Origin: Candidatus Desulfolinea nitratireducens
GTDB taxonomy: Bacteria > Chloroflexota > Anaerolineae > Anaerolineales > Villigracilaceae
Direction of reading: 5' to 3'
Assembly: GCA_014382535.1 (NCBI GenBank)
Contig: JACNJN010000145.1
Location: 1 to 39,700 of the forward strand
Length of the DNA: 39,700 bases
Shown: positions 4,521 to 32,617 of the stretch, piece after piece
Numbering within the stretch: position 1 is the stretch's first letter
How the letters are laid out: each line of letters begins with the position of its first letter
Position numbers and translations under genes: made by a program
The notes under the pieces: model-generated
What the model saw: only the letters and a program-made list of their open reading frames with translations
The model's database searches: none
What the model was told of the DNA's origin: nothing

Positions 4521-4523
4521 CCG

Positions 4524-10371: not shown

Positions 10372-10399
10372 TTGACAAAGTTTATAATTATTGTATAAT
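10372..10399 (+). promoter_or_regulatory. Sigma70-type promoter of the ROK-UroD operon
   Basis: Consensus TTGACA (10372-10377), 16-nt spacer, consensus TATAAT (10394-10399). Confidence 0.75.
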
Positions 10400-10433
10400 T
10401 TAATTAGTTGGTTGCTCCAACATACTAACCCTT

Positions 10434-11678
10434 ATGTCATCAAAAAATTCAGCTGATCAAGCCCTGATTCGTGAACTAAATCTTTCACTAGTGCTTCAAC
10501 AGATCCATAATGATGCACCTGTTTCGCGTGCACAGATCGCACAAATTACTGGTTTGAATAAATCTACAGTCTCAAGTTTGGTGGAATCTCTCATAGATCG
10601 GAACCTGATCCACGAAACAGGAATAAAAACTGTAGGAACGGGACGTCCAGCTACTTTATTGGAAATCAACCCCAGGGCTGGTGGGATCATTGGTGTTGAA
10701 TTGGGGATAGATTTTGTTGCTGTCGCATTGACTGACTTCGCAGGAAATATTTTGTGGAAACAAAGAGAGAATGCCAATCCAACAGATGCCCAGGAAAAGA
10801 CACTTGCTCAGACATTGGAATTAATTAACAGGGCTGTTGTTGTTTGCAAAAAGCAGGATCTTTTCCTTTTTGGTCTTGGGGTTGCGACACCCGGAACTGT
10901 GGATCTGAACGAAGGAATTCTTGTCTTTGCCCCAAACCTGCAATGGAGAAATGTACCTCTGAAGGAAATTATTTCCAGTCATACTGGTATTCAGGCTTAT
11001 ATTGAAAACGATGCTAACGCTGCAGCGGTTGCAGAGCATTTATTTGGTGCAGCCCGGCAAAGTCAAAATTTTATCTTTGTTTTCGCTGGTGTGGGCATCG
11101 GCGGCGGGCTCTTTCTCAACGGAGAATTACACCGGGGAAATAATGGCTATGCCGGGGAGCTTGGTCATTCCCCGATTATGATTGAACCATTCCTCTCATC
11201 TTGTCATTGCGGGAATCAAGGCTGTTGGGAAACATATGCCAATCAGTATTCCATCATAAAGCGAGTTCAGGCTCGCCTGGAAGTTAATCGAAATAGTATT
11301 ATTCCTGGCCTATTGAAAGAAGAAAATATCCCATTATCCATATCCATTATTAAACAGGCGGCTGACGATGGTGATCCTGTGGCTATCGAAGCTCTCTCTG
11401 AAACTGGTGTTGCCATTGGTCTTGGTATTGCAAACTTAATTAATATTTTCAACCCAGAAAAAATTATTTTTGGAGGGCCTCTTAGCATCGTTGGGGAATA
11501 TCTTTTGCCTTCGATCAAGGACACTGCCTTAAAACATTCACTTCCTGAAATAAACCCAAACGTTGAGATTCTTCTCTCCGGTTTTGCAAAAAATGCGAGC
11601 TTGATTGGCGCAGTAAGTATCGTTGTGGATGACATTCTTCAAAGCCCTACAATTATTGATCGGCCAGTACAACAATGA
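10434..11678 (+). CDS. ROK family transcriptional regulator (NagC/XylR type)
   Basis: N-terminal HTH (APVSRAQIAQITGLNKSTVSSLVESLIDRNLI), ROK domain with GVGIGGGLFLNGELHRGNNGYAGELGH and zinc motif CHCGNQGCWETYA. Confidence 0.92.
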   Translation: MSSKNSADQALIRELNLSLVLQQIHNDAPVSRAQIAQITGLNKSTVSSLVESLIDRNLIHETGIKTVGTGRPATLLEINPRAGGIIGVELGIDFVAVALTDFAGNILWKQRENANPTDAQEKTLAQTLELINRAVVVCKKQDLFLFGLGVATPGTVDLNEGILVFAPNLQWRNVPLKEIISSHTGIQAYIENDANAAAVAEHLFGAARQSQNFIFVFAGVGIGGGLFLNGELHRGNNGYAGELGHSPIMIEPFLSSCHCGNQGCWETYANQYSIIKRVQARLEVNRNSIIPGLLKEENIPLSISIIKQAADDGDPVAIEALSETGVAIGLGIANLINIFNPEKIIFGGPLSIVGEYLLPSIKDTALKHSLPEINPNVEILLSGFAKNASLIGAVSIVVDDILQSPTIIDRPVQQ

Positions 11679-12715
11679 ATTCTATTGAAAGAACCCTGCT
11701 TACCCTTGAAGGGAAATTACCAGATCGTGTCCCCGTTGATCTGCATAATTTTCTGGTAACAGCCCGTTTAATGAATGTTGGGTCTTATGCTGATTATTTT
11801 CGCGATGGTGAGGCAATGGCTGAAGGTCAGATCATGGCATGGAAGCGTTTTGGCCATGATGTACTGATCATTGAAAATGGAACCGCTGCGCTGGCTGGAG
11901 CATTAGGGGTTGAGGTGCGTTTTCAATCTGACTCTGCCCCGGTTGCAACGACACCGGTTTTAAAAAGTCTTGATGAAGTTGATAAATTAAAATTGCCCGA
12001 CCCTTATAAAGATCCGATTTTGAGCGAATTACTAAAGGCAACCCGAATTGTTGTCGATCAAATTGGAGATCAGGCTTTTGTTATTGGCAGGGCGGATCAG
12101 GGACCATTCAGCCTGGCCTGTGAACTGCGCGGAATGGGCGATTTTTTGCTTGACCTTGCTAAGAACAAGCAGCCCGAAAAAATTGAGCAGCTATTGGATT
12201 TCTGTCGGCAGGTTTGCCACCGTTTTGCTGTTGCCCAAATTGAACAAGGTGCACACGCAACATCAATCGGAGACTCATCTTCTGGGCCGGATGTGATTTC
12301 TCCAACATATTATCGAAAATTTGCTTATCCATATGTCAAACGCCTGTTGGATGATCTGAAATCACAAAATATTCTCCTCGCATACCATATTTGTGGAAAC
12401 TCAACATCCATTATTGACGATATGGTTAGCACAGGCGCAGCAATTCTTGAAATTGATCAAAAAGCGGATATGACCAAAGCAAAATTTGCTGCAAATGGGC
12501 GAACGACCTTGTTAGGCCCCATTGATCCAAGTGGCATTATGGCGCACGCAACTCCTGACGCAGTTGCAGAAAAGTGTCGCGAAGCACTCGATATTCTCGC
12601 CCCTGGCGGCGGATTTATTTTAGGCCCCGGATGCGCTTTACCCGCTTTTACTCCTGATGACAATATTTTTGCAATGATTGAAACTGCTAAGGAATATGGA
12701 CATTATACAATTTAA
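11675..12715 (+). CDS. Uroporphyrinogen decarboxylase-family protein, probable methyltransferase (MtaA/CmuA-like), not HemE
   Basis: UroD-fold sequence with zinc-type motif H-x-C-x79-C (YHICGNS ... GPGCALP). Start overlaps the ROK stop by 4 nt. Confidence 0.8.
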   Translation: MNSIERTLLTLEGKLPDRVPVDLHNFLVTARLMNVGSYADYFRDGEAMAEGQIMAWKRFGHDVLIIENGTAALAGALGVEVRFQSDSAPVATTPVLKSLDEVDKLKLPDPYKDPILSELLKATRIVVDQIGDQAFVIGRADQGPFSLACELRGMGDFLLDLAKNKQPEKIEQLLDFCRQVCHRFAVAQIEQGAHATSIGDSSSGPDVISPTYYRKFAYPYVKRLLDDLKSQNILLAYHICGNSTSIIDDMVSTGAAILEIDQKADMTKAKFAANGRTTLLGPIDPSGIMAHATPDAVAEKCREALDILAPGGGFILGPGCALPAFTPDDNIFAMIETAKEYGHYTI

Positions 12716-12767: not shown

Positions 12768-12796
12768 TTGACAATCACATTTGTAATTGCTAGAAT
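12768..12796 (+). promoter_or_regulatory. Sigma70-type promoter of the GntR-LacI gene
   Basis: TTGACA (12768-12773), 17-nt spacer, TAGAAT (12791-12796). Confidence 0.7.
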
Positions 12797-12811
12797 GTAC
12801 ATAAATGTACA
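12796..12811. promoter_or_regulatory. Candidate AraR-like operator
   Basis: Perfect dyad TGTACAT-AA-ATGTACA starting at the last base of the -10, 58 nt upstream of the GntR-LacI regulator. Confidence 0.65.
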
Positions 12812-12868: not shown

Positions 12869-14032
12869 ATGAGCATTCAACCGCTTTCTGATTATGATTT
12901 ACTCCCAATCTACATTCGTGTGGCGGATGATCTGCGGTCAAAATTAGGAACGCCAGGATTTGAAATCGGTTCATATTTACCTGGTGAGCATGAAATAGCC
13001 ACTCAATATAATCTCAGTCGGGGAACTATCCGACGTGCGCTTGGTATTTTAGAAACTGAAGAATTGCTGAGCAGGCAGCCTGGACGAGGCACCCTTATTC
13101 TTCCGCCTTCAGCGCGGGAGCAAGGTACAAGACCCAGGATTGCTATTGTGTGGACAATGGTGCGGTGGATGGGAATGGAAATGTTTAGCGCACTTGAGGA
13201 TCATCTCTCCTCGGCAAATTGTGACATCCTTTTCAGCTCATCCAAGCACGACCATCAACAGGAACTTGAGATTCTCACAAGCCTGCTTGATTCTGATGTT
13301 GATGCAATTGTGTTGTATAGTACCGGGCATCCCGATATCCATCCAATAATTCAACAACTTCAAAATCAAGGAAAACCCGTTATCCTTCTCGACCGATTTG
13401 TTCAAGATCAGGCTGAAACGCTTAGTTGGGTAACCTCTGACAACGAGCAGGGCTCATATGAGATTACGTGGCATTTAATTGAATTGGGACATAAGCGCAT
13501 TGGCATGAGTATTCTTACGCCAGAGCATCAACATGAGCGAATTAGTACGATAATTGAACGTGAGAACGGGTATATAAAAGCAATTAATGAAGCTGGACTT
13601 AAAAGCTTAATTATGAAAGAACGTGGAATTGTTGGTGCGTCCAGCGCAGCATATAGTCAGGGACTGATGGAATTCCTTATCACGCATCAACCTACGGCTC
13701 TTTTCTTTCATAATGATGTGTCCGCATATCGTATGCACGAGGTACTCATTCAAAATGGAATTCGAGTGCCAGAAGATATCTCAATTGCCGGTTTTGACGG
13801 GTTAGACCTTTTTGACGATTTATTACCCTTCGATTTTACAACTGTAAAACAGGATTTCGCCAGTCTGGGACTGGAGGCTGGTAAACTAGTATTATCACTT
13901 ATACAGAACCCTAATCGCCAGTCAAGACAAATCAGACTGCCGGTTAAGCTCCGTGTGGGAAGTACAACGGCTCCTCCGCGGAAGGATGCAGACTCTCGCA
14001 AACTACTGCCTCGATTGCTGGAGGCAGACTAA
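12869..14032 (+). CDS. GntR-LacI hybrid transcriptional regulator (AraR-like architecture)
   Basis: GntR wHTH (YLPGEHEIATQYNLSRGTIRRALGILETEELLSRQPGRGT) joined to a LacI-type effector domain (RIAIVWTM..., DNEQGSYEITWHLIELGHKRIGM, PEDISIAGFDG, TTVKQDFASLG). Confidence 0.9.
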   Translation: MSIQPLSDYDLLPIYIRVADDLRSKLGTPGFEIGSYLPGEHEIATQYNLSRGTIRRALGILETEELLSRQPGRGTLILPPSAREQGTRPRIAIVWTMVRWMGMEMFSALEDHLSSANCDILFSSSKHDHQQELEILTSLLDSDVDAIVLYSTGHPDIHPIIQQLQNQGKPVILLDRFVQDQAETLSWVTSDNEQGSYEITWHLIELGHKRIGMSILTPEHQHERISTIIERENGYIKAINEAGLKSLIMKERGIVGASSAAYSQGLMEFLITHQPTALFFHNDVSAYRMHEVLIQNGIRVPEDISIAGFDGLDLFDDLLPFDFTTVKQDFASLGLEAGKLVLSLIQNPNRQSRQIRLPVKLRVGSTTAPPRKDADSRKLLPRLLEAD

Positions 14033-14149: not shown

Positions 14150-15967
14150 ATGAAACGTAATTTGTTTTTCCTATTTGTAATACTGATGCTTGTGGTAGCC
14201 GCTTGTGGTACCCCAGAAGCAGCACCCGCAGAAGAAGTTGCACCTGCTGAAGAAGCAGCACCCGCAGAAGAAGCTGCACCTGCTGAAGAAGAGACCATGG
14301 AATTGATGGAAGTAGCCCGCGAAGATACACTTATCGTTGGGTGGAGCGTTTCCTCTCCCATCGGTGTAACCAACCCGTGGGCAGTTCCCGGCTATACCCA
14401 CCAGGAAGGCAATGGCTTTATGTGGGAAGGCTTGTCCTACTTCCGCATCTTCGCTGACGTAGAGGCACCCTGGTTGGCCGAAAGCATGGTCTATAACGAT
14501 GACTTCACCGAGTTGACCATTAGCGTAAATCCGGCAGCAAAATGGAGTGATGGCGTTGCCGTTACCTCTGCTGACGTAGCTTTCACGCTCGAAGGTCAAT
14601 TGGCAGACGAAACCTTGCCTTACCACGCCGCCTTTGTACAATTTGTAGAATCGATTGAGGTAGTGGATGATCTGACAACGGTTGTCACCTTTAACCAGCC
14701 AGCACCTCGTTTTAAATTTGAAGTGTTGACCCTGAAATTCGACACCGGTATTCCGATTGTTCCTGCGCATGTACTTGAACCCCTGGATAACTACAGTGAA
14801 TATCCTGGTGGCCTGGATATGCCTCACTCTGGTCCTTACACCAATGTTGTCTGGGACCAAACCCAAAAGATTTTTGACCTGCGTGAAGATTGGTGGGCAG
14901 TTGAAGCCGGCCTGATCGAAATGCCAGATGTCAAACGCATCGTCATGGTGAACCTCGGCGGTCAGGTTGGGGCAAATATGGAAGCAGTTGCCCAACGCAT
15001 CGTCAATAACGATATGGACACAGCACTTGACTTCCGCCAGAGCCTGATTGCAAGCACCATTGAGCAAAATCCAATGGTAACTTCGCATACAGGTGACCAG
15101 CCTCCTTATGGATACCTGGACTGGTGGCCGAACTCACTGTGGGTCAACACGCTGGTGTCACCCTATGATGAAGCAAACGTGCGCCGCGCTATGAGCCTGG
15201 CCATTGATCGCGACAAGATTGATGAGATTGTCTATGATGGTGCACAAGTCACGACCATCTTCCCATTCCCGCTTTACCCCGGTTTGGAGAGCTTTGTTGC
15301 CCGTGATGATGTTCAAGCTTTAATCGCGGAATACGAGCCACGCAAATTTGACGTCGATGAAAGCGCCAGCCTCATGGAAGCAGCCGGATTCGCATTGAAC
15401 GGTGATGGCCTCTGGGAACGCGATGGCGAGACAGTCAATGCCACCATCCACGGTTTCGGCGGAATTCACGGTGACATCGTTCCTGTATTGGAGCAGATGC
15501 TGCTGGACGCAGGTTTCGATGCCTCGATCAACTTTGGCGATGATGCCTATCAGCAAATGGCTGACGGTGCTGCTGGAATGTATATGTTCGGTCACGGTGC
15601 TAGCTTGGCCGATCCGTATGAAGCACTCAACCTGTTCCACGGCAAATACAGCGATTCAATCGGCACCTCTGCCGGTAACAACCGCTTCTCCCGCTACAGC
15701 AATCCAGAGTTTGATGCTATCCTGGATGAAATCGCTCCGCTAGATGCCAATGATCCGGCGTTCCAAGAAGGAGCTGCAAAAGCATTGGGAATCTACTGGG
15801 CTGAGCAAATTGATATTCCGATCATCCAGTGGTTGCACCGTATTGCTTATAACCAAACATACTGGACCAACTGGCCCACGGCTGCTAATGTAGGCCCTGG
15901 TGTCAACGGTGCCTTCTGGGCGCACACAGGTATGCTCGTTGTGACCGGTTTGGAAAAAGCCGAATAA
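14150..15967 (+). CDS. ABC transporter substrate-binding lipoprotein, family 5 (peptide/oligosaccharide type)
   Basis: Lipobox VVAACG; family-5 features AAKWSDGVAVTSADVAFTLE and ANVRRAMSLAIDRDKI; followed by Dpp-type permeases and ATPases. Confidence 0.92.
   Translation: MKRNLFFLFVILMLVVAACGTPEAAPAEEVAPAEEAAPAEEAAPAEEETMELMEVAREDTLIVGWSVSSPIGVTNPWAVPGYTHQEGNGFMWEGLSYFRIFADVEAPWLAESMVYNDDFTELTISVNPAAKWSDGVAVTSADVAFTLEGQLADETLPYHAAFVQFVESIEVVDDLTTVVTFNQPAPRFKFEVLTLKFDTGIPIVPAHVLEPLDNYSEYPGGLDMPHSGPYTNVVWDQTQKIFDLREDWWAVEAGLIEMPDVKRIVMVNLGGQVGANMEAVAQRIVNNDMDTALDFRQSLIASTIEQNPMVTSHTGDQPPYGYLDWWPNSLWVNTLVSPYDEANVRRAMSLAIDRDKIDEIVYDGAQVTTIFPFPLYPGLESFVARDDVQALIAEYEPRKFDVDESASLMEAAGFALNGDGLWERDGETVNATIHGFGGIHGDIVPVLEQMLLDAGFDASINFGDDAYQQMADGAAGMYMFGHGASLADPYEALNLFHGKYSDSIGTSAGNNRFSRYSNPEFDAILDEIAPLDANDPAFQEGAAKALGIYWAEQIDIPIIQWLHRIAYNQTYWTNWPTAANVGPGVNGAFWAHTGMLVVTGLEKAE
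14219..14290 (+). repeat. In-frame 36-bp tandem repeat (2 copies) encoding a PAEE-rich linker
   Basis: gcagcacccgcagaagaagttgcacctgctgaagaa repeated with one difference (gtt/gct); encodes AAPAEEVAPAEEAAPAEEAAPAEE after the lipid-modified Cys. Confidence 0.85.
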
Positions 15968-15986
15968 TTAGTACCTAGTTTAGACC

Positions 15987-16032
15987 GAGAGACCAATTGT
16001 CCCAGCGAATGCTGCGTGGCAATTGGTCTCTC
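15987..16032 (+). promoter_or_regulatory. Intercistronic RNA hairpin
   Basis: Perfect 13-bp arms GAGAGACCAATTG (15987-15999) / CAATTGGTCTCTC (16020-16032), 20-nt loop, no T tract; between SBP and permease. Confidence 0.75.
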
Positions 16033-16063
16033 AATTAGTCAAGTTTTCAAAGGAGTAATCCTT

Positions 16064-17065
16064 ATGAGTTATAAAAACATATTGCGACGCCTTGTTTTTC
16101 TTGTGATGGTTATTTGGGTGGCAGCTACTATTGTTTTTTTTATTCCCCGAATATCTTCACGTAACCCTGTCCGCGAACGCTTTGCTGCTTTGGCCCGCAC
16201 AGGCGGGTTTTCACCGGGCGATCTGGAAACAATCATTGCTTCTTATAATACAAAATTTGGACTCGACAAACCTTTAATGGAACAGTACACCGATTACTTG
16301 GGCAGCCTGGCTCGTTTTGATCTGGGCATTTCGATGAATCAGTTCCCAAAGACTACCAGCGAGTTGATTATGGAAGCGCTGCCCTGGACCATTGGATTGC
16401 TCTTCGTTACCACCATTCTGTCATTCATCATTGGTAATCTGCTCGGTGCGATGGCTGCCTGGCCGAAGACTCCCGATTGGTTGCGGAATATAGCGACTTC
16501 TTTTGTATTGTTGCAGGGGGTGCCACCCGTTTTGATGGGACTCTTGTTAATATTCTTTATTGGCTTTCGCGCTAATCTTCTCCCGATCAGTGGTGCCCAC
16601 AGTATTGGGGTTGTGCCAGAATTCACATTGAAGTTCTTGCTGGATGTAGGTAAGCACCAAATTTTGCCAGCATTGGCCTTGATTTTTGGCAGCGTAGGTG
16701 GATGGGTCTTGAGTATGCGTGGCATGGGTGTCACCATTCAGGGTGAGGATTACGTCCTCTTTGCTGAACATAAAGGTTTGGGGAATTCGGCTATATTTAA
16801 GAATTATTTTCTGCGTAACGCGATGCTCCCCCAGGTGACCGGTTTTGCGCTGGCATTAGGTAATTTGGTTGTCTCAGCCATTGTTGTCGAGGAAATATTT
16901 GGTTTACCTGGCTTGGGTACCTTGTTGAGTAAATCTATCAGAGTGAATGACTTCCTGGTAATTTATGGCATTGTATTATTCATTACCATCGCAATTGCCA
17001 CATTGATGGTACTGGTTGAGCTACTTTATCCGCTGCTGGATCCGCGAATTAGCCTCGAAAATTAG
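16064..17065 (+). CDS. ABC transporter permease (DppB/OppB type)
   Basis: Permease motif FAEHKGLGNSAIFKNYFLRNAMLPQVTGFALALGNLVVSAIVVEEIFGLPGLG; SD AAAGGAG before ATG 16064. The listed ORF start at 16016 lies inside the hairpin. Confidence 0.92.
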   Translation: MSYKNILRRLVFLVMVIWVAATIVFFIPRISSRNPVRERFAALARTGGFSPGDLETIIASYNTKFGLDKPLMEQYTDYLGSLARFDLGISMNQFPKTTSELIMEALPWTIGLLFVTTILSFIIGNLLGAMAAWPKTPDWLRNIATSFVLLQGVPPVLMGLLLIFFIGFRANLLPISGAHSIGVVPEFTLKFLLDVGKHQILPALALIFGSVGGWVLSMRGMGVTIQGEDYVLFAEHKGLGNSAIFKNYFLRNAMLPQVTGFALALGNLVVSAIVVEEIFGLPGLGTLLSKSIRVNDFLVIYGIVLFITIAIATLMVLVELLYPLLDPRISLEN

Positions 17066-17077
17066 GAGAATTCCCCT

Positions 17078-17992
17078 ATGACAAACATGGCATTTTCTCA
17101 AACGCAGGCGCAGTCAAATGACGACCTGCAACCCAGCAGGCTGACACTTATTCTACGTTACCTACGCCGAAATAAGAGCCTGACATTTGGTCTGCTCTTA
17201 CTCATATTTCTGATCGCCTTTACCACCATTGGCATGCTGACCATCGATCAAGATCGCGCCTATGCCCTGGCCGTCAAATCTAAACAAGCGCCGGGCGCAG
17301 AATTTCTGTTCGGTACCGATTTCTTTGGCCGTGATATGCTGGCAGTAATGATCGTGGGCACCTGGCAAACGGCACTCATCGGCGTCCTCGCCGGTGGACT
17401 CGGTACGCTGATTGGTGTGATTCTTGGTTTCGTGGCAGCTTATTTTGGCGGTATTGTAGACAAATCTATTATTGGAATCAGCCAAATTCTGGTGCCGATT
17501 CCTCCCCTACTAATTCAAATTATTATCGCCGGGACACTCGATAAACGAGATGTCACCATATATACTATGGCCTTTATTGTGGTGATTTTGGCCTGGATGG
17601 GCCCGACGCTGGTGATGCGCTCACAGGTGCTGTCGATGAAGGAACGGCAGTATGTTTCTGTGGCTAAACTTTCTGGCGTGGGTGATGTTGGCATTATCTT
17701 CATGGAAATATTACCCAATCTATTGCCATTCATTGTGGCCCAATTTGTGACCCAGGTCTTCGCGGCTGTTTTCGCCTCATTCTATTTGGCGGTGCTGGGT
17801 CTTGGCCCGGTGCGTGAGCCACTGCTGGGCAATATCATTTGGGCTGCCATGAATCAAGGTGCGTTTTTCAATGGCTGGTGGTGGTGGCCCATATTCCCTG
17901 CTGTGGGTTTAGTATTGATCCTCGGCTCCTTGGCGCTGATTAATATGGGGCTGGACGAATTGTCTAATCCTCGTGTGCGTAGGTCGGAGTAA
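17078..17992 (+). CDS. ABC transporter permease (DppC/OppC type)
   Basis: FLFGTDFFGRDMLAVMIVGTWQTALIGVLAGGLGTLIG and RQYVSVAKLSGVGDVGIIFMEILPNLLPFIVAQF. Confidence 0.92.
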   Translation: MTNMAFSQTQAQSNDDLQPSRLTLILRYLRRNKSLTFGLLLLIFLIAFTTIGMLTIDQDRAYALAVKSKQAPGAEFLFGTDFFGRDMLAVMIVGTWQTALIGVLAGGLGTLIGVILGFVAAYFGGIVDKSIIGISQILVPIPPLLIQIIIAGTLDKRDVTIYTMAFIVVILAWMGPTLVMRSQVLSMKERQYVSVAKLSGVGDVGIIFMEILPNLLPFIVAQFVTQVFAAVFASFYLAVLGLGPVREPLLGNIIWAAMNQGAFFNGWWWWPIFPAVGLVLILGSLALINMGLDELSNPRVRRSE

Positions 17993-18013
17993 ATAAATAA
18001 TGGAAAAAATATC

Positions 18014-19045
18014 ATGGTAGATATGAAGAGAGATAATAATAAATCAACTGGGGTGAACGATGCTGTCCTCCAGATCAAGGACTTGGATGTTTCCTACTAT
18101 ACTGACGCAGGACGGGCACAGGCCCTGGCTGGTATTAGCCTAAACCTTAAGGCTGGTGAAAAGTTGGGTTTGGTCGGCGAATCCGGGTCTGGCAAAAGCA
18201 CGATGGCACTGGCGATGATGAATATGATCAAACCCCCCGGACGGATCGAAGGAGGGCAAGTAATTGTCGATGGCACAGATCTGATGGCGCTGTCGGAGGA
18301 GGAAATGCTCAAGGCACGCTTGAGTAAGATTTCTTATATTCCCCAGGGGGCCATGAACTCGCTCAACCCGGTGATGCGTATCGGTGATCAAATGCTCGAT
18401 GCCATCGAAGCGCATGATAGCACTATCTCCAAGAATGATATGAAGGAAAGATCCCGGAGCGCACTGGAGTCAGTAGATCTGGATCATCATGTATTCAGGA
18501 TGTATCCCCATGAATTGAGCGGCGGTATGAAGCAGCGCGTATGTATCGCTATTGGTATTTTGCTTGAGCCCAAAGTCATCGTGGCTGACGAACCAACCAG
18601 CGCATTGGATGTGGTCACCCAGCGTCAGGTAATGGAAACGATTGATAAACTGCGGGTACAGCTTGGGGCAGCCGTGATCTTGATCGGACACGATATGGGA
18701 TTGATGGCTCAATTTGTGGATAAGGTGGCTGTTCTATATGCTGGTCAAATTATGGAATTGAGCACTGTAACCGAAATGTTTACAGACTCTTTGCATCCTT
18801 ATGCACAGGCATTAATTAGTAGCCTGCCCAACCTGGACAACAAAGGCGAATTTCAAGGCATTCCCGGTCTTGCGCCGGCACTTCTGCGTTTGCCCAGCGG
18901 GTGCTCTTTTCATCCCCGTTGCGAATATGTGATGGATATTTGTCAAACCGACAGACCGCTCCCTGTAGAGATAAATGGCCGAACAGTGGCCTGTCATTTG
19001 CATACCAATAAAGAACCAGCAGCATCTCAGGTGATCAAATCATGA
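18014..19045 (+). CDS. ABC transporter ATPase (DppD/OppD type)
   Basis: Walker A GESGSGKST, signature LSGGMKQRVCIA, Walker B VIVADEPTSALD, C-terminal Cys-rich GCSFHPRCEYVMDICQTDRP. Confidence 0.94.
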   Translation: MVDMKRDNNKSTGVNDAVLQIKDLDVSYYTDAGRAQALAGISLNLKAGEKLGLVGESGSGKSTMALAMMNMIKPPGRIEGGQVIVDGTDLMALSEEEMLKARLSKISYIPQGAMNSLNPVMRIGDQMLDAIEAHDSTISKNDMKERSRSALESVDLDHHVFRMYPHELSGGMKQRVCIAIGILLEPKVIVADEPTSALDVVTQRQVMETIDKLRVQLGAAVILIGHDMGLMAQFVDKVAVLYAGQIMELSTVTEMFTDSLHPYAQALISSLPNLDNKGEFQGIPGLAPALLRLPSGCSFHPRCEYVMDICQTDRPLPVEINGRTVACHLHTNKEPAASQVIKS

Positions 19046-20052
19046 CAGAACTATTAGAATTCAAGAACGTTACCAAAGTATTTTCAAGTGGCCTGTTGAC
19101 GAAGACATCAACGACAGCGGTTCGTAACGTTTCCTTCAAGTTGGCCCAGGATGATCCCACCATCATGACAGTGGCAGGTGAAAGCGGTAGCGGCAAGACG
19201 ACCCTGGCCATGCTTCTGCTAGGATTCATTCCAGCTACCTCAGGGCAGATCTTATATAAAGGAACTGATATTAAAAATTTGAGAGGCGCCGAAAGGATGA
19301 TCTTCCGGCGTGAGGTGCAGGCAGTTTTTCAAGACCCATTTGCTGTATTCAATCCCTTTTATACGGTGGACCATTTGCTCACAGTGCCTATTAAACGATT
19401 TAAGTTGGCTAACTCCAAGAGTGAGGCGCATGAGAAAATGATCGAGGCGCTTACAGCTGTGGGCTTGCATCCGCAGGATATTCTTGGCCGCTTTCCGCAT
19501 CAACTTTCCGGTGGACAGCGCCAACGGATCAATGTGGCGCGCGCCCTTGTGCTAAGACCAAAGGTCTTGGTAGCTGATGAGCCAGTTTCAATGGTGGATG
19601 CCTCTTTGCGTGCAAATATCCTGGAATTATTGCAGAGTTTGAAAGAAGATCATGGAGTTTCGATTATCTATATCACGCATGACCTGACCACTGCTTATCA
19701 CGTGGCTAAATCAATCATGGTAATGTATCGAGGTACCGTGATGGAAGCGGGCAGTGTCGATAGAATTATCAAAAAACCGGAGCATCCTTATACCCGCTTG
19801 CTGATCGATTCGATCCCCTGGCCAGATCTAAAACGTCGTTGGGGAGAAACTGATATTAAGGCACGCGAAGCAGCGATCGAAGATATTAGCGAGGGATGCA
19901 AATTTTATGGCCGCTGTCCCTTTGCGATGGATAAATGCAAAGTATTTCCTCCATTATTTCAACTCAATGAAGAACAGGCCGCCTCCTGCTATTTATTTGA
20001 TGAGAATAAGCAAATCGCTTCAGAAAAGTTATCAGAACTCTTACCTGTGTAA
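19042..20052 (+). CDS. ABC transporter ATPase (DppF/OppF type)
   Basis: Walker A GESGSGKTT, LSGGQRQRINVARAL, VLVADEPVSMVD, C-terminal GCKFYGRCPFAMDKCK; 4-nt overlap with the preceding gene. Confidence 0.94.
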   Translation: MTELLEFKNVTKVFSSGLLTKTSTTAVRNVSFKLAQDDPTIMTVAGESGSGKTTLAMLLLGFIPATSGQILYKGTDIKNLRGAERMIFRREVQAVFQDPFAVFNPFYTVDHLLTVPIKRFKLANSKSEAHEKMIEALTAVGLHPQDILGRFPHQLSGGQRQRINVARALVLRPKVLVADEPVSMVDASLRANILELLQSLKEDHGVSIIYITHDLTTAYHVAKSIMVMYRGTVMEAGSVDRIIKKPEHPYTRLLIDSIPWPDLKRRWGETDIKAREAAIEDISEGCKFYGRCPFAMDKCKVFPPLFQLNEEQAASCYLFDENKQIASEKLSELLPV

Positions 20053-20102: not shown

Positions 20103-20438
20103 ATGTCTCGTAATATTTCATATGCATTAACCGGTTGGCTGGCCGGTGCTGTGACCATGATCATCATGGGCTTTCTTTGGCCAAAAATATTTCCAGCAAT
20201 CGTCAATGTTGAACATTATTATGGTGCTGGACCCAATTTAATCTCAATTATCGGGATAGCCTTGCTAGTGATGTCACCAGTATCACTGCTGGGTGGTCTT
20301 ATTGGAGGTCGGGTTTCCATCGAGGGTGGGGAGTGGGGGCAGCGAGCGATTTCCGCCATTTTTGGAATCATTTTTACGATGCCGGTTAGCTGTGGGGTGT
20401 ATCTGTATTTCACAGGATATGGGTTTGGTATTTCATGA
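20103..20438 (+). CDS. Small hypothetical membrane protein
   Basis: 111 aa with about 3 hydrophobic segments; stop overlaps the next ATG by 4 nt, suggesting real translation and coupling. Confidence 0.65.
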   Translation: MSRNISYALTGWLAGAVTMIIMGFLWPKIFPAIVNVEHYYGAGPNLISIIGIALLVMSPVSLLGGLIGGRVSIEGGEWGQRAISAIFGIIFTMPVSCGVYLYFTGYGFGIS

Positions 20439-21409
20439 TAAAAATCGCAGAATATTTGACTCCCACTCCTTCACCATTGTGGAAACTGGCCAAACAGGCC
20501 GGGGCAGATTGGGCAGTGGGAAGTTTGCCCTTTGACGACCCGCTCAATGCTGGGGATGCCCCCTGGGACTATTTCCCGCTTTTACGGGTGAAACAATCAT
20601 TTGAGAGCCATGGTTTTAAGTTGGCGGTGATTGAATCTCGCCCACCCTTGAATAATGCCAAACGCGGCTTACCGGGTCGTGATGAAGAAATCGCCACAGT
20701 GTGTACCTTGCTTGAGAATATGGGCAAATTGGGAATTCCTGTCTGGTGTTATGAATGGATGACCGATTTTAATTGGTTGCGCACCAATACCAGCACCCCG
20801 GCACGGGGCGGCTCGTTGGTGACCAGTTTTGATTACACATTGATTCAAGATGCACCACAGACCGAATTAGGGCCCATCAGTGAAGACACACTGTGGGAAA
20901 ATCTGGAATATTTCTTAAAACGAGTGCTACCAGTAGCTGAAAAATGGAATGTCAAATTGGCCATGCACCCTGATGATCCCCCTTTATCACCCATTCGCGG
21001 TATTGGGCGGATAATGAGCAGTGTTGAAAATTTCAAGCGTCTGCTTGATCTGGTGCCCAGCCCAATGAATGGCATTACGATGTGCCAGGGCAACTTTACA
21101 CTCATGACTGATGATCTGCCAGGTGTGATTCGGCAATTTGGAGAGCAGGACAAAATTTTCTTTGTTCATTTCCGCGACGTTATTGGTACACCTGAGAAAT
21201 ATTCGGAGGCGTGGCATGATGCTGGACAAACAGATATGTTGGCCTGTATGCAGGCTTATAAGGATATAGGTTTTGATGGAGTCCTGCGGCCCGATCACGT
21301 ACCCACGGTTGAGGGAGATAGCAACGAAAACGCGGGTTACTCCTCATACGGTCGGCTCTTTGCGCTGGGCTATATTCACGGTCTAAGCCAGGCCGTATAC
21401 AACGATTAG
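20435..21409 (+). CDS. Mannonate dehydratase-like TIM-barrel protein (UxuA family), paralog 1
   Basis: UxuA-type motifs MHPDDPP, CQGN, VHFRDV, LRPDHVPT. Confidence 0.85.
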   Translation: MIKIAEYLTPTPSPLWKLAKQAGADWAVGSLPFDDPLNAGDAPWDYFPLLRVKQSFESHGFKLAVIESRPPLNNAKRGLPGRDEEIATVCTLLENMGKLGIPVWCYEWMTDFNWLRTNTSTPARGGSLVTSFDYTLIQDAPQTELGPISEDTLWENLEYFLKRVLPVAEKWNVKLAMHPDDPPLSPIRGIGRIMSSVENFKRLLDLVPSPMNGITMCQGNFTLMTDDLPGVIRQFGEQDKIFFVHFRDVIGTPEKYSEAWHDAGQTDMLACMQAYKDIGFDGVLRPDHVPTVEGDSNENAGYSSYGRLFALGYIHGLSQAVYND

Positions 21410-21441
21410 AAATTACAGATTCTGATAAAGGATTTTATTGC

Positions 21442-22272
21442 ATGAGAATCGCAATTACCGGTGGCAATGGCCGAATCGGACAAGCCGTTGTTGAACTTGC
21501 TCTTACCCAAGGACACACTGTTGTAAATATTGATCGCATAAAAGGGGACGCAGATTTATCAGGGGTAACCCATTTTCAGCTGGACACTACAGATTATGAT
21601 TCATTCAAGAAAGTACTGGATGGGTGTGAGGCGTTGATTCACCTGGCCGCTATTCCAGGGCCTGGCTATCATCCTGATCATATTGTTCATAATAATAATG
21701 TTGTTTCGAGCTACAATGCGCTCAGGGCGGCCGCAGAACTAGGTATCAATCGTGTTTGTCAGGCCTCCAGCATTAATGCCATTGGCGGTGCATATAGTCG
21801 CTTACCACACTACGATTACTTTCCTCTTGATGAAGAGCATCCCACCTATAATGAAGACCCTTATAGCCTGTCAAAGTGGATCTGTGAGATCCAAGCTGAT
21901 TCATTCGTCAGAAGATATGAGAATATGAAGATTGCCAGCCTTCGTATTCATGGTGTCGCGGCTGAACGGATTGATTCAGCCAAATGGCAGGATTCGGCTA
22001 CTGATATCGTGGTAAAACATTTGTGGGGCTATGTACGCCGCGATTCAACTGCGCGCGCCTGCTTACTTGGTGTTACGGCTGATTTTAGCGGTCATGAAGC
22101 TTTTTATATTGTTGCCTCTGATACGGTTATGAACATAGCTTCGCTGGAGCTTAAAGAGCAATTCTATCCAAATGTTTCCGTGCAGGGGGATCTCAGTGAA
22201 AATAAGAGCTTCTTTGATTGTCAGAAAGCTAAGCGATTATTAGGCTGGCAGCACGATACAGATTCTAAATAG
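21442..22272 (+). CDS. NAD-dependent epimerase/dehydratase, uronate dehydrogenase-like
   Basis: Rossmann GGNGRIGQ, HLAAIPGPG, SSINAIGG, YSLSKWICE (YxxxK); overall pattern resembles uronate dehydrogenase. Confidence 0.78.
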   Translation: MRIAITGGNGRIGQAVVELALTQGHTVVNIDRIKGDADLSGVTHFQLDTTDYDSFKKVLDGCEALIHLAAIPGPGYHPDHIVHNNNVVSSYNALRAAAELGINRVCQASSINAIGGAYSRLPHYDYFPLDEEHPTYNEDPYSLSKWICEIQADSFVRRYENMKIASLRIHGVAAERIDSAKWQDSATDIVVKHLWGYVRRDSTARACLLGVTADFSGHEAFYIVASDTVMNIASLELKEQFYPNVSVQGDLSENKSFFDCQKAKRLLGWQHDTDSK

Positions 22273-22322
22273 GGGTGTATTCGTTCTCTTTTTCTATTCT
22301 CAATCCAATAACGGAGTAAATA

Positions 22323-23141
22323 ATGCATATTCAACCCTCGCGTGAGGATTTGATCGAACTCACTAAGCTCAACCCTTTTTTGCGTTTCGACGATGGCCGA
22401 CCAAAAGTTCCAGATGATCTACTGGCTCGCATGAAATTGGTAACAAATGAGGAAGCCTGGGCAATTCTGCATAAGCATGAGTATCTGCGTCAATTTGAAG
22501 GTGGCTGGCGAGAAACGCACCCGGGGCGCAAGCTTGTGGGACGGGTGGTCACAGCCCAATTTCTTCCTCACCGCCCTGATTATCATGATGCTATTCAGCA
22601 GGCTGGCTTGGCCGAGGGGCGCTCCAATATTGGAGGTCAAAACTCGTGGGTTATTGAGATGTTGGGGGAAAATGATGTCATGGTGGTAGATATTTTTGGG
22701 AAAGTTAAAGATGGAACCGTAATCGGGGATAATTTGGGAACTGCTGTTCAGGCACGTACCAATACTGGTGCGGTTATAGATGGGGGTATCCGTGATTATG
22801 ATGGATTGACTAAACTACCAAACGTAAATTTCTTTATGCGCGGCATGGACCCAACCCCCATCGCCGACGTGACATTGGCTGGCATCAACATTCCAATTCG
22901 GATTGGCGGAGCGACAGCACTCCCCGGTGATATTATTTTGGGCACGCCAACCGGGATCACCTTTATTCCCCCACACCTCGTGCAAGAGGTTGTTGAAACC
23001 AGCGAAGAGATACGAATCCGTGATGAGTTTGGCAAGCAGCGCCTGGCAGAGGGAAAATACACCAGCGGAGAGATTGATGTCCCAGAGTGGCGTGAAGATA
23101 TCAATGCAGATTTTAAAACCTGGCTCAAGAATAGAAACTGA
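22323..23141 (+). CDS. RraA / HMG-aldolase family protein, paralog 1
   Basis: GDNLGTAVQARTNTGAVIDGGIRDYDGL and PGDIILGTPTGITFIPPHLVQEV, typical of RraA/HMG aldolase-like proteins. Confidence 0.82.
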   Translation: MHIQPSREDLIELTKLNPFLRFDDGRPKVPDDLLARMKLVTNEEAWAILHKHEYLRQFEGGWRETHPGRKLVGRVVTAQFLPHRPDYHDAIQQAGLAEGRSNIGGQNSWVIEMLGENDVMVVDIFGKVKDGTVIGDNLGTAVQARTNTGAVIDGGIRDYDGLTKLPNVNFFMRGMDPTPIADVTLAGINIPIRIGGATALPGDIILGTPTGITFIPPHLVQEVVETSEEIRIRDEFGKQRLAEGKYTSGEIDVPEWREDINADFKTWLKNRN

Positions 23142-23151
23142 AAGGAAGCGC

Positions 23152-24471
23152 ATGAATAAAAAAGAGAAAAACTCTACACGGCCCGAAGAGTATGTGTCCA
23201 ATTTTGGGCTCCCGAGCGATCTGAAGATAACAGATCTGAGAATTGCTACCGTGGGCTGGGACGACTGGCGCTTCCCAATAATTCGTATTGATACAAATCA
23301 GGGATTAAGCGGTTATGGGGAAGTGCGCGATGGGGCCAGCAAGACCTTCGCCCTGATGCTTAAAAAGCGTTTATTGGGTGAGAATCCATGCAATGTGGAT
23401 AAACTTTTTCGTAAAATCAAGCAATTTGGACACCATGCCCGACAGGGTGGCGGTGTATGCGGTATCGAAATGGCCCTCATGGATTTGGCGGGGAAGGCTT
23501 ACGGCGTCCCCGCTTATGCTTTATGCGGTGGCAAGTTTCGGGATCAGGTCCGCATCTATTGTGATACGCCGAATGAAGACACTGGGATAGCAATGGGCCA
23601 TAAGCTTAAGGAGCGGATGGAGCGCGGCTTCACAATGCTCAAAATGGATATCGGCATCCAACCATTGATTGGTATAAAAGATGCGCTTACTTATCCAGCA
23701 GGAATGTTGAACTCTCATGATGGAACCTCATTAGAGCGGATGCTGGATATCAACTCCATTCAGCACCCTTTTACCCATGTGCGCTTAACCACGGAGGGGA
23801 TTCGATTATTAGTGGAATATGTTGAGCAGGTCCGGTCGGTTGTTGGATACGAAATCCCAATTGCGGCCGATCACTTCGGGCATATCGGGATAGATGATTG
23901 TATCCGTCTGGGTGAAGCCCTTGAACCCTATAATCTGGCCTGGCTTGAAGATATGGTGCCCTGGCAATATACCGATAAATGGGTTCGCCTGGAGCGCTCG
24001 CTCAAAACACCTGTTTGCACCGGGGAGGACATCTATCTAAAAGAAGGCTTTTTACCTTTGTTGCAGGCAGGAGCCGTTAATGTCATTCATCCAGATCTGG
24101 CCACAAGCGGTGGCATTTTAGAAACGAAGAAGATTGGTGACCTCGCCCAGGAATATGGCATCAGCATGGCCATGCATATGGCGGGCACGCCCATCAGCAC
24201 TATGGCAAGTGTTCATTGTGCTGCTGCAACTGAGAATTTTATCGCTTTGGAGCATCACTTTGCAGATGTGCCCTTCTGGAATGATTTTATTAACATTGGA
24301 TCAAAACCAATTATTCAAGAGGGCTATATCCCTGTGCCCGATAAACCCGGGCTGGGATTTGAAATCAATGAAGAAACGATTAAAGAGCATCTCGTCTCCG
24401 ACGACCAGGGATTTTTTGAACCAACTACGGAGTGGGATTCTGAGCGTAGCTGGGATCGCCTGTGGTCATAG
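23152..24471 (+). CDS. Enolase superfamily (mandelate racemase/muconate lactonizing) protein, paralog 1
   Basis: GIEMALMDLAGKAYGVPAYALCGGK, K-M-D motif (FTMLKMDIG), candidate metal ligands AADHFG, LEDMVPW, GEDIY, His in MHMAG. ATG 23152 follows AAAGGAAG; the longer ORF start at 22903 overlaps the RraA gene. Confidence 0.88.
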   Translation: MNKKEKNSTRPEEYVSNFGLPSDLKITDLRIATVGWDDWRFPIIRIDTNQGLSGYGEVRDGASKTFALMLKKRLLGENPCNVDKLFRKIKQFGHHARQGGGVCGIEMALMDLAGKAYGVPAYALCGGKFRDQVRIYCDTPNEDTGIAMGHKLKERMERGFTMLKMDIGIQPLIGIKDALTYPAGMLNSHDGTSLERMLDINSIQHPFTHVRLTTEGIRLLVEYVEQVRSVVGYEIPIAADHFGHIGIDDCIRLGEALEPYNLAWLEDMVPWQYTDKWVRLERSLKTPVCTGEDIYLKEGFLPLLQAGAVNVIHPDLATSGGILETKKIGDLAQEYGISMAMHMAGTPISTMASVHCAAATENFIALEHHFADVPFWNDFINIGSKPIIQEGYIPVPDKPGLGFEINEETIKEHLVSDDQGFFEPTTEWDSERSWDRLWS

Positions 24472-24498
24472 ATGATTATCGGAAAATGGAATAAATTC

Positions 24499-25755
24499 AT
24501 GAAAATTACAAATGTTAAATCTATTCTGACGGCGCCTGAAGGCATCGCCCTCGTTGTCGTCAAAGTCGAAACGGATCAGCCGGGATTATATGGGCTCGGC
24601 TGTGCAACCTTTACGCAACGCCCCACCCTGGTGGCAAATGCGGTTGACGAATATCTTGCTCCCCTGCTTCAGGGCCGTGATCCAGCCAATATCGAAGATC
24701 TATGGCATATGATGCATGTCAATTCCTACTGGCGCAACGGCCCGGTCCTGAATAACGCGATCAGTGGTGTCGATATGGCCTTATGGGATATTAAAGGCAA
24801 AGAAGCCAATATGCCCGTATATGATTTGCTGGGTGGCAAGTGCCGTGAGGCGGCCATGGTCTATCGCCATGCCGATGGTCGTGACCCCCAGGAAGTATTG
24901 GATAATGTACTCAATTATCAGGAAGAGGGATATCTGGCGGTCCGTTGTCAGATGGGCGGTTACGGTGGCCGGGTCAAGGAAATGACAGACGATACGGTTC
25001 AACCGGGGAAAGCAGCACCGCAAGCGACCCATCGCATCCATATGATGGAACGTTTGAATACCAATTTTCCCGGGGCATATTATGATCCGGACTGGTATGC
25101 CCGTTCCGTCGTGGAATTATTTGAACATGTGCGGACAAACGTCGGTGATGACCTTTTCCTTTTGCATGATGTCCATGAGCGTCTTACACCGATGGATGCG
25201 ATTCGCCTGGCAAAGGCATTGGAGCCTTATCGCCTCTTTTTCCTGGAGGACCCCCTGGCTCCCGATCAGATCGAGTGGTTCCGTCGGTTGCGTGATCAAT
25301 GTGCCACGCCAATTGCTATGGGTGAGCTGCATAATAACCCCCTGGAATGGCGTATGCTAATTGCCGAGCAATTGATAGATTATATCCGTGCCCATATTTC
25401 CCAATTGGGTGGCTTGACTCCTGCCCGCAAATTGGCCTCCTTATGTGAAGCCTTCGGTGTACGCACAGCCTGGCATGGCCCGGGCGATGTCTCTCCTGTC
25501 GGACATGCGGCAAACCTGCACCTGGACCTGGCATGTCATAATTTTGGGATTCAGGAAGTGATCAATTTCAGTGATGTACTCTATGAGGTCTTCCCGGGCA
25601 CACCTGAATTGCGCGGAGGATATGTCTGGTCGAACGGCAAACCTGGATTTGGGGTTGATATCGATGAAGAAAAAGCAGCTCAGTACCCCATCGAGATTCC
25701 GCCAATTACGTGGACGCAAAGTCGTTGGCCTGACGGTACGATTTGGACACCTTAG
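24499..25755 (+). CDS. Mannonate dehydratase ManD/RspA-like (enolase superfamily), paralog 2
   Basis: GVDMALWDIKGKEANMPVYDLLGGK, RHADGRDPQEV, R-C-Q motif (LAVRCQMGGYGG), FLEDPLAPDQ, GELHNNP, WHGPGDVSPVGHAANLHLDLA. Upstream ATG 24472 possible. Confidence 0.88.
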   Translation: MKITNVKSILTAPEGIALVVVKVETDQPGLYGLGCATFTQRPTLVANAVDEYLAPLLQGRDPANIEDLWHMMHVNSYWRNGPVLNNAISGVDMALWDIKGKEANMPVYDLLGGKCREAAMVYRHADGRDPQEVLDNVLNYQEEGYLAVRCQMGGYGGRVKEMTDDTVQPGKAAPQATHRIHMMERLNTNFPGAYYDPDWYARSVVELFEHVRTNVGDDLFLLHDVHERLTPMDAIRLAKALEPYRLFFLEDPLAPDQIEWFRRLRDQCATPIAMGELHNNPLEWRMLIAEQLIDYIRAHISQLGGLTPARKLASLCEAFGVRTAWHGPGDVSPVGHAANLHLDLACHNFGIQEVINFSDVLYEVFPGTPELRGGYVWSNGKPGFGVDIDEEKAAQYPIEIPPITWTQSRWPDGTIWTP

Positions 25756-25775
25756 TAAATTACAGAAAACATTCT

Positions 25776-25900
25776 AACTACTCAGGCTTGTCTTTGCGAG
25801 GCAGTTCTACCGCCGAAGCAATCTCCCAAGCAGTTTTGGAGACTGCCGCGTCGCAAAAGCGTGCTCCTCGCACAGACACTTCTGAAGAGGCTGAGTAGTT
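25776..25900. repeat. MITE/REP-like element (copy B of the dispersed repeat) with 10-bp TIRs
   Basis: AACTACTCAG (25776-25785) / CTGAGTAGTT (25891-25900) enclosing TTGCGAGG...GAAGCAATCTCC...GGAGACTGCCGCGTCGC...GCTCCTCGCA. Confidence 0.6.
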
Positions 25901-25962
25901 ACGAAGCAATCTAATATTAAAGTGCTACATTTCATTGCTAGAAAGTATATAGAAGAAAGCTT

Positions 25963-27021
25963 ATGAGCATTAAACCTGATAAATTCCCAATGCGGGCAGT
26001 CCCCGGATATTATTCGAGTACCGAAGGTATTCAGATCGCCTTCCAGACAAATGCCAATGCCAGCGATGAAGATTTGCAGTTTTATCAGCAATTAGGTGTC
26101 GAGTGGGCTATGGTTAACATCAATAATGCTGAGCAGCACTCGCTCGAATTTTATAAAGGCCTGGTCAAACGTTTTGGTGATTACGATATCAAGATTTATC
26201 GAATAACCAACCTCGGCGTTCACAACGTGCCTGAGATCACACTCAATCTTCCCGGCCGCGATAATAAGATAGATGAATTTAAGGGTTTTATCCGTAATAT
26301 CGGCGCCGCAGGAATTAAATACAATACCTACGCCCATATGGCCAACGGGATTTGGTCTTCCCCCCGAATCGATGGGCGAGGCGGGATGAGTGCACGCCAC
26401 CTTGATATATCTAACGCTGTCGGATATTGGGATGATCATAGTTATTCTGGGGAATTGACACATGGACGGACCTATAGCGAAGAAGAATTATGGGAAAACT
26501 ATGCCTATCTGATCCGCCAGATTGCACCGGTGGCCGAAGAGGCCGGTGTACGGATCGGGATCCATCCCGATGATCCGCCAGTTTATGCATTGGGAGGCAT
26601 TCCACGCTGTATCTTTGGCAATTTTGCCGGTTATAAAAAAGCAATGGAAATTGCAGATAGCCCCAATATCGGCGTTTGTCTTTGCATTGGCTGCTGGCTG
26701 GAGGGGGGCGAAATCGGTATGGGCAATAGCGTGGTTGATGCCATAAAATATTTTGCATCAAAAAACCAGCTCTTCAAAGTTCATTTTCGGAATGTTTCAA
26801 ATCCCATGCCCGAGCCATTGGCCGAGACGCTGATCGATAATGGGTATCAGGATATGTACGATGTAATGAAGGCACTCCGCGAGGTGAAATTCGACGGGTG
26901 TATTATTCCTGACCATATTCCACAGATGTTGGGTGGGCATCGGGTGGGCGTGGCCTATTCGATTGCCTATATGCGAGCGCTGGTGCAGGCGGCGAATCAT
27001 GAGTTTGGCGGGGCTGCATAG
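25963..27021 (+). CDS. Mannonate dehydratase-like TIM-barrel protein (UxuA family), paralog 2
   Basis: IHPDDPP, CLCIGCW, VHFRNV, IIPDHIPQM. Confidence 0.83.
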   Translation: MSIKPDKFPMRAVPGYYSSTEGIQIAFQTNANASDEDLQFYQQLGVEWAMVNINNAEQHSLEFYKGLVKRFGDYDIKIYRITNLGVHNVPEITLNLPGRDNKIDEFKGFIRNIGAAGIKYNTYAHMANGIWSSPRIDGRGGMSARHLDISNAVGYWDDHSYSGELTHGRTYSEEELWENYAYLIRQIAPVAEEAGVRIGIHPDDPPVYALGGIPRCIFGNFAGYKKAMEIADSPNIGVCLCIGCWLEGGEIGMGNSVVDAIKYFASKNQLFKVHFRNVSNPMPEPLAETLIDNGYQDMYDVMKALREVKFDGCIIPDHIPQMLGGHRVGVAYSIAYMRALVQAANHEFGGAA

Positions 27022-27055
27022 AGTCGGTATTGAATGAAAAAAGTGAGAGTATCCT

Positions 27056-27706
27056 ATGAACAAAGTAATTGAGCAAATTGGAAAGCTGGGCGTCGTCCCT
27101 GTCGTAGCAATTGAGGATGCAGCCGACGCGCCCCGATTGGGTCAGGCCTTGATGGCCGGTGGTTTGCCTTGTGCAGAGATCACATTTCGTACGGCAGCAG
27201 CAGAATCGGCCATCCGTGCAATGGCTACTGAATATCCGGATATGCTGGTGGGGGCCGGAACTGTGTTGACGGTGAATCAGGCAGAAAGAGCCCTTTCCGC
27301 TGGTGCAAAATTTATCGTTACCCCTGGATTTGACGCCGCCGTTGTCGATTGGTGCCTGAGTCACGAGTTGCCGATCACTCCCGGAGTAATGACCCCGACT
27401 GAAATTAATTTGGCTCTCAATAAAGGGCTGAAGCTGTTGAAATTTTTCCCTGCGGAAGCGGCTGGTGGCATCAAAACGCTCAAGGCCATTGGTGGCCCTT
27501 ATGTCGGTGTTTCCTTTATCCCAACCGGCGGGATCGGTGTTCACAACCTGGCTGACTATTTGCGATTGCCCATGGTCCACGCTTGTGGAGGCAGTTGGCT
27601 GGTCAAAAAACAGCTGATTGCAGAGGGCGAATTTAAACAAATCGAGAAGTTAACTGCTGCCGCTGTAAAACTGGTTCAGGAAATACGAGGAGAAAATCAT
27701 GACTAA
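27056..27706 (+). CDS. eda: KDPG/KHG aldolase, paralog 1
   Basis: [22 protein letters not shown], Schiff-base region [18 protein letters not shown]. Confidence 0.92.
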
Positions 27707-28745
27707 GCGCGTTGTGACTCTCGGCGAAATCATGTTGCGTTTGAAACCAGTCGGTTTTGAGCGCTTCTTTCAATCGCCGACATTGGAAGCCACCTTTGGC
27801 GGTGGTGAGGGGAATGTTGCTATATCATTGGCGAATTTTGGCCTGGACGCAGCTTTTGTGACAGCCCTGCCCATGAACCCCATTGCCGACGCCTGCATCC
27901 GATTTTTGCGCGGTTATGGTGTAAACACCGATCATATTACTCTACAGGGAGAGCGGATGGGGATCTACTTTTTGGAGGCTGGAGCCAATCAACGACCCTC
28001 GAACGTCGTCTATGATCGCGCCCATTCTTCCATTTCCACTGCCCAGGCTGCAGATTTCAACTGGGATGCCATTTTTGAAAATGCAGGTTGGTTTCATATT
28101 ACCGGCATCACACCGGCCATAAGTGAATCAGCGGCAACGTTGTCCCTGAAGGCTGTGCAGGAAGCAAAAGCACGCGGCGTCACTGTTTCCTGTGACTATA
28201 ACTTCCGCAAAAAATTGTGGAAGTATGGCAAGAGTGCTCCTGAGGTGATGGGAGAATTGGTCAAATTTGTGGATGTGGGCATCGCCAATGAAGAGGATTG
28301 TCAGCGTTCGCTGGGGGTTTCTGTGAGTGAAGGGGATTGGGAGCAGGGTGTCAGTTCAGGTGAATTGGATACAGCTCGGTATCAGGCCCTGGCAGAGAAA
28401 ATGTTTGCCACCTTCCCCAATCTGAAATATCAGGCGATCACGCTGCGTGAAAGTTTTAGCGCCAGCCATAATGGCTGGTCGGGATGTTTATTTAACGGAA
28501 ACAAATTCCTCGTCAGCCAGCGATACGATATCAAAGATATTGTGGATCGTGTCGGGGGAGGCGATTCATTTGCGGCCGGATTAATTTACGGTTTACACAC
28601 GGGAATGACAGATGAAGACGCCCTGAGCTTTTCAGTGGCAGCTTCTTGTCTGAAACATTCCATTTCCGGAGATGTAAACCTGAGTACAGTCTCTGAGGTC
28701 CAAAAACTGATGGCTGGTGATGGCTCAGGCCGAGTACAGAGGTAG
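27699..28745 (+). CDS. kdgK: PfkB-family sugar kinase, 2-keto-3-deoxygluconate kinase type, paralog 1
   Basis: [49 protein letters not shown]; start overlaps the aldolase gene. Confidence 0.88.
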
Positions 28746-28803
28746 CTGTCCTGTTGAATTGACTCTTCAATCCCATTCAGTATTTATAAGTAGAGGAGAA
28801 ATA

Positions 28804-29952: not shown

Positions 29953-30058
29953 ATCTGTTTCCGGTCGAGGATTAGCAGGAGACTTGTTCTGGTCCAAAGC
30001 ATAATTGATTGAAGACAAGAGCCGTGGTCCAATTTTTATTTATTAATAGGAGATACCA

Positions 30059-30706: not shown

Positions 30707-30740
30707 GAAGATTTTTTATATTTACCGTGGAGCATTTTAT

Positions 30741-31895: not shown

Positions 31896-31914
31896 AGTAG
31901 GGCGAGGCTCCTTT

Positions 31915-32607: not shown

Positions 32608-32617
32608 GGCATAGCTT

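Follow-up and report, generated by a model that had tools for sequence, protein, structure and literature searches.

The ROK–URO-D gene pair and its neighbours

The window, the whole stretch of 39,700 nucleotides analysed here, makes up its entire contig, in a genome of 3.65 Mb that is 97.9% complete. It carries a ROK-family regulator gene followed by a URO-D-family gene, with the following features in and around the pair:

10372..10399 (+): promoter-like site TTGACA-16-TATAAT 5' of the ROK gene, a 12/12 match to the consensus
10407..10421 (no strand): perfect inverted repeat GTTGGTTGCTCCAAC just 3' of the -10 box, candidate ROK operator
10434..11678 (+): ROK-family transcriptional regulator gene, an ORF of 414 aa with winged helix and ROK domain
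11675..11678 (+): ATGA stop/start overlap of 4 nt between the ROK and URO-D genes, translational coupling
11675..12715 (+): URO-D/MtaA-CmuA-like methyltransferase gene, an ORF of 346 aa
12386..12394 (+): codons of H238-I-C240, predicted zinc ligands from alignment and conservation
12632..12634 (+): codon of C320, predicted third zinc ligand on the same grounds
12768..12796 (+): promoter-like site TTGACA-17-TAGAAT, a consensus match and separate start for the downstream unit
12796..12811 (no strand): perfect palindrome TGTACATAAATGTACA, candidate operator of the GntR/LacI regulator
12869..14032 (+): regulator gene with GntR helix-turn-helix and LacI-type sugar-binding domain
14150..20052 (+): Opp-type ABC transporter (SBP5, two permeases, two ATPases)
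20435..33430 (+): uronate/sugar-acid catabolic cluster with two UxuA, three MLE-family dehydratases, two KDPG aldolases, PfkB kinases, an RraA-like protein, an epimerase and an SDR

The first gene encodes a ROK protein (PF00480, 219 bits) that combines an N-terminal winged helix, a ROK domain and the zinc motif CHCGNQGCWE (CxCGxxGCxE) with a kinase phosphate loop that is degenerate as judged by eye, which is the make-up of a ROK transcriptional regulator without an intact kinase phosphate loop. Among curated proteins, NagC and Mlc are the closest to it. The first-pass annotation's reading of a sugar-type regulator is supported. NagC/Mlc-type repressors have the same winged helix, ROK domain and CxCGxxGCxE motif, but the window protein scores far below their equivalog cut-offs, and its predicted co-transcribed target is a corrinoid-type methyltransferase rather than a sugar kinase, hydrolase or transporter. 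No link between ROK proteins and corrinoid methyltransferases was found in the literature searched.

The ATGA overlap bears out the translational coupling of the two genes proposed in the first-pass annotation. Because the GntR/LacI gene has a promoter-like site and a palindrome of its own (12768-12811), the ROK–URO-D pair looks like a transcription unit of its own, as predicted from sequence, with the URO-D gene as its sole co-transcribed structural gene. The uronate cluster that had been described as adjacent is real, but it starts about 7.7 kb downstream, and a separate promoter, the GntR/LacI regulator and the Opp-type transporter intervene. The candidate operator of the ROK protein was rejected as a regulon marker: GTTGGN5CCAAC showed no enrichment, with 3 perfect matches in the genome versus 8 for the reversed control. 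One other genome site, on contig C88, lies inside a large ORF. The palindrome at 12796..12811 occurs once in the window. Upstream, at 2050-5324, are ECF-type transporter genes (fused ATPases, a CbiQ-like T component and a small ORF, possibly the S component).

Family and zinc site of the URO-D protein

The second gene product matches PF01208 over its whole length (residues 4-341, 238 bits). Its best NCBIfam match is mtaA_cmuA (TIGR01463), at 187 bits against a cut-off of 235 bits, and it contains the His-x-Cys ... Cys zinc ligands of that subfamily; H238, C240 and C320 are all present, as first annotated. The protein looks as if it works like the MtaA/CmuA subfamily though it falls below the membership cut-off. 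The best sequence match in the PDB is MtaA (4ay7), and in that alignment the HICGN and PGC motifs coincide. An AlphaFold model (pLDDT 90) gave the same protein as its top structural match (TM 0.88 / 2.3 A), and the best HemE structure scored about TM 0.84 / 3.2 A.

Alignment with E. coli HemE showed that the window protein lacks RQAGRY and has other residues in place of the catalytic Asp, Tyr and His. The hemE profile (TIGR01464) gave 93.9 bits against a cut-off of 302.95, and contig C208 carries a distinct HemE gene, which is incomplete at the contig end and scores 307 bits. The protein is thus almost certainly not HemE, as the first-pass annotation had argued; an ordinary uroporphyrinogen decarboxylase arising as a HemE paralogue, which has the Pfam family name and the shared fold in its favour, is close to refuted by the missing residues, the low score and the real HemE elsewhere.

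In a tree of 70 rows, whose deep branches are weak, the protein falls within a 41-row clade (SH-aLRT 99). The H-C-C site is kept in 41/41 members of this clade, so its presence in the window protein is not due to chance. Other URO-D proteins, whose sites read H-D-H, H-C-H or the like, group apart from this clade in the same tree; two of the H-C-H type are encoded in the window's own genome, in unrelated contexts. The chloromethane:corrinoid methyltransferase CmuA also carries H-C-C in the alignment, so the substrate cannot be read from the motif. From these features we predict that the protein is very probably a zinc corrinoid-type methyltransferase. The first-pass annotation had named the methylcobamide:thiol methyltransferase arrangement; the cobamide-methyltransferase type stands, while transfer towards a thiol is not required, and the enzyme may be donor-side.

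Set against characterised enzymes, the window protein shares the fold (TM 0.88), the length and the H-x-C...C ligands of the methylcobamide:CoM methyltransferases MtaA and MtbA (4ay7). It differs from them in sequence (23% identity in the structural alignment, and a score below the MtaA/CmuA subfamily cut-off), in being bacterial with a sugar-operon context, and in that some of its relatives adjoin another acceptor-side enzyme. CmuA, in its N-terminal domain, has the same H-C-C residues, and its donor-side role with a corrinoid domain resembles the one proposed below. Unlike the window protein, CmuA is fused to its own corrinoid domain; identity is 27% and the substrate context is different.

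Corrinoid and sugar genes in the genome and among relatives

Only one URO-D gene occurs in the window, corrinoid and Ram genes are absent from it, and no corrinoid, MeTr or RACo gene was found on its contig. Elsewhere, the genome encodes four stand-alone corrinoid proteins (contigs C100, C94, C65 and C69) beside MttB-type genes, two RACo proteins, MeTr proteins and a CODH/ACS operon that includes AcsV and a methyltransferase (locus L108, contig C199). The first-pass annotation had counted the absence of a corrinoid partner among the signs against its reading; with these genes present, and corrinoid genes beside some relatives (below), that objection fails. As the genes of the stand-alone corrinoid proteins adjoin MttB genes, we name none of them as the partner. 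The protein of contig C100 (locus L031) groups with URO-D-linked corrinoid proteins at 100/100, but since that tree holds only nine sequences and the gene has an MttB neighbour, we do not claim it as the partner. As a separate observation, the CODH/ACS operon indicates that the organism probably has the carbonyl branch of the Wood-Ljungdahl pathway.

We then considered the neighbourhoods of 37 window-type genes in 27 genomes, taking B12-binding_2 within 3.5 kb as a corrinoid protein; the scan of genome contigs yielded only four relatives. Corrinoid genes lay near 5/37 URO-D genes against an expectation of 0.28 (P about 8e-6; 3e-5 when the margin is widened), in a calculation that ignores shared ancestry and includes some short contigs. 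The remaining 32/37 had no corrinoid gene nearby. RACo was present in 25/26 genomes with a window-type gene versus 259/370 without (P 0.0015, again ignoring shared ancestry). In the exception, G306, no RACo was seen and there are only two B12-binding_2 proteins, one of them MetH-sized.

One set lies around a relative 60% identical to the window protein (L052), where a divergent URO-D gene, the URO-D gene itself, a corrinoid protein (L052:5407-6462), a pterin MeTr, RACo, a second URO-D gene and PfkB occur together. This provides all the components of a three-component O-demethylase (MT I, corrinoid protein, MeTr and activase); no such operonic set is found at the window. At L115, the URO-D gene is accompanied by a small ORF, RACo, a corrinoid protein and a homocysteine-methyltransferase-type protein. 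At L053, the URO-D gene and a corrinoid gene (L053:11040-11675) belong to a glycan operon, among GH1, GH57, a solute-binding protein, Gfo/Idh, GH130, esterases (acetyl-xylan-esterase) and a sulfatase. L120 and L128 combine a LacI-type regulator, a corrinoid protein, an H-C-C URO-D protein and further URO-D proteins (two or more in all), and L128 has a GHMP sugar kinase as well. The gene of the best plasmid match (34%) has that of a cobalamin-dependent protein on one side and that of an ASKHA-domain protein on the other. Gene context in relatives thus suggests a corrinoid link for the URO-D protein itself.

Sugar genes recur in these neighbourhoods. In another family, locus L051 has the order seen in the window, namely ROK, URO-D, LacI-type regulator and sugar ABC transporter, with the ROK proteins 31% and the URO-D proteins 46% identical. 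At L023 and L025 the URO-D gene begins 3-4 nt 3' of ribose-type ABC genes, and its neighbours at L050 encode a KDPG aldolase, a Gfo/Idh protein and an isomerase-like TIM barrel. Distribution of the gene is patchy: in eight genomes of the same genus, no match was found at the search threshold. The sugar ABC operon of L051, 3' of ROK-URO-D-LacI, also contains a PhyH-family (oxygenase-type) gene (L051:15891-16700).

Direction of methyl transfer and possible substrates

L052 and L115 already have an acceptor-side enzyme, MeTr in the one and homocysteine methyltransferase in the other, so a donor-side role (MT I) is the simplest for the URO-D protein, and we consider it probable. The fuller proposal, a donor-side corrinoid methyltransferase acting in trans on a methylated sugar-like compound, we hold to be evenly balanced; for the substrate alone, a methylated sugar-like compound is plausible at slightly less than even confidence. 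Counting against the proposal are the contig free of corrinoid, MeTr and RACo genes, the MttB neighbours of the stand-alone corrinoid genes, the 32/37 relatives with no corrinoid gene near them, G306, and the S/Se use described for H-C-C sites (PMC10418091). What the sequences show is the structure of the gene pair, the family, the conserved zinc ligands, the predicted fold, the genome's corrinoid machinery and the linkage to corrinoid and sugar genes in relatives; catalysis, direction, the partner in trans, substrate class and regulation are all inferred. Zinc on H238, C240 and C320 would bind or activate the hetero-atom of the substrate, and Co(I) of a corrinoid protein, whose gene would lie at another place in the genome, would take over the methyl group, which could then go to tetrahydrofolate and CODH/ACS, or to homocysteine. 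The co-transcribed ROK repressor would be autoregulated, its sugar ligand opening the gene pair.

It is possible, but in our view unlikely, that the protein is instead an acceptor-side enzyme (MT II, a true MtaA analogue), moving the methyl group from a methyl-corrinoid to a zinc-bound thiol, homocysteine or another small thiol, with another URO-D protein as the demethylase. H-C-C is a thiol-type site (PMC10418091), MtaA is the nearest solved relative, and an H-C-C protein occurs with a second, mostly non-H-C-C URO-D protein at L024, L114, L116, L120, L123, L124, L127 and L128. The two H-C-H type proteins of the window's own genome could be read in the same way, but their contexts are unrelated, and L052 and L115 pair the URO-D protein with a different acceptor-side enzyme.

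The zinc site also bears on the methylated atom. H-C-C sites serve methyltransferases of sulfur and selenium compounds, and O-demethylases have carboxylates there (PMC10418091). This rule is not absolute, as CmuA demethylates a halide yet shows H-C-C; CdmB is an MT I of the same fold that lacks zinc (PMC13222342). Both O and S are compatible with the evidence, and the methylated atom of a sugar-like substrate may be either. A Mlp-type demethylase that merely happens to lie in sugar operons, with a methylthio or methylseleno compound, possibly a methylthio-sugar, as donor, would account for the H-C-C site, and the characterised Mlp2 acts on selenide/methyl-selenol (PMC10418091). We regard this as rather improbable: the relatives' neighbours are sugar transporters, sugar kinases, glycoside hydrolases and LacI/ROK regulators, and no sulfur or selenium genes were noticed among them. 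The window protein does resemble the Mlp proteins of type 1 mlp clusters in being MtaA-like, with H-C-C, in a non-methanogen, and some loci of both kinds have corrinoid and Ram/RACo partners (PMC10418091). The window differs in having no cluster of several Mlp proteins with corrinoid protein and Ram and in its sugar, rather than sulfur or selenium, neighbours, and L052 contains MeTr, which type 1 clusters exclude by definition (PMC10418091).

Very unlikely, finally, is a corrinoid-independent enzyme that acts as a zinc-thiolate transferase or performs some other reaction on a sugar-derived substrate. The 32/37 relatives without an adjacent corrinoid gene and G306 without RACo would fit such an enzyme, and the superfamily includes a non-corrinoid thiol transferase, epoxyalkane:CoM transferase (PMC10418091), but the significant corrinoid adjacency and RACo co-occurrence speak against it.

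Returning to the donor-side reading, the first-pass annotation had speculated that 4-O-methylglucuronate is O-demethylated to feed the uronate cluster. This compound is normally freed by GH67 or GH115, and a search of the window's own genome for both families found neither. The uronate genes belong to another transcription unit, the contig has no corrinoid gene, and H-C-C sites have been described for S/Se substrates, not for O substrates (PMC10418091). Uptake of the free compound would bypass GH67/GH115, and even so we think this substrate highly improbable. Three-component O-demethylases (MtvB/OdmB/VdmB/MtoB with corrinoid protein, MeTr and RACo) have the same set of components as L052, but their substrates are aryl methyl ethers, the window has no operonic corrinoid protein or MeTr, and the O-type enzymes are described without a full H-C-C site (PMC10418091).

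The URO-D protein is a previously undescribed variant of a known superfamily, in an unusually consistent sugar context. Plant, algal and bacterial glycans often contain methylated sugars. As a tentative generalisation, the large H-C-C URO-D clade of anaerobic Chloroflexota under ROK/LacI regulators might comprise corrinoid-dependent demethylases of methylated sugars or cyclitols, so that folate, homocysteine or CODH/ACS would receive the methyl group and the sugar would be catabolised. In the literature searched, mostly outside subscription journals, we found no report of corrinoid-dependent demethylation of sugars. Several families of the class have about 20-70 first-look URO-D candidates per genome, a large unexplained expansion; if true, the proposal would help explain this abundance, and operons such as L053 and L052 would make it directly testable.

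Three further observations concern the neighbours of the relatives. A divergent family unrecognised by Pfam lies near or next to H-C-C URO-D genes (L052:2560-3714, L051:16721-17818), its L052 member giving a weak URO-D profile match of 42 bits. MttB-like genes stand directly beside window-type URO-D genes at L130, L095 and L101. At L123:12042-12956, a CobW-type metallochaperone gene lies amid four URO-D genes, which suggests metal delivery to their products.
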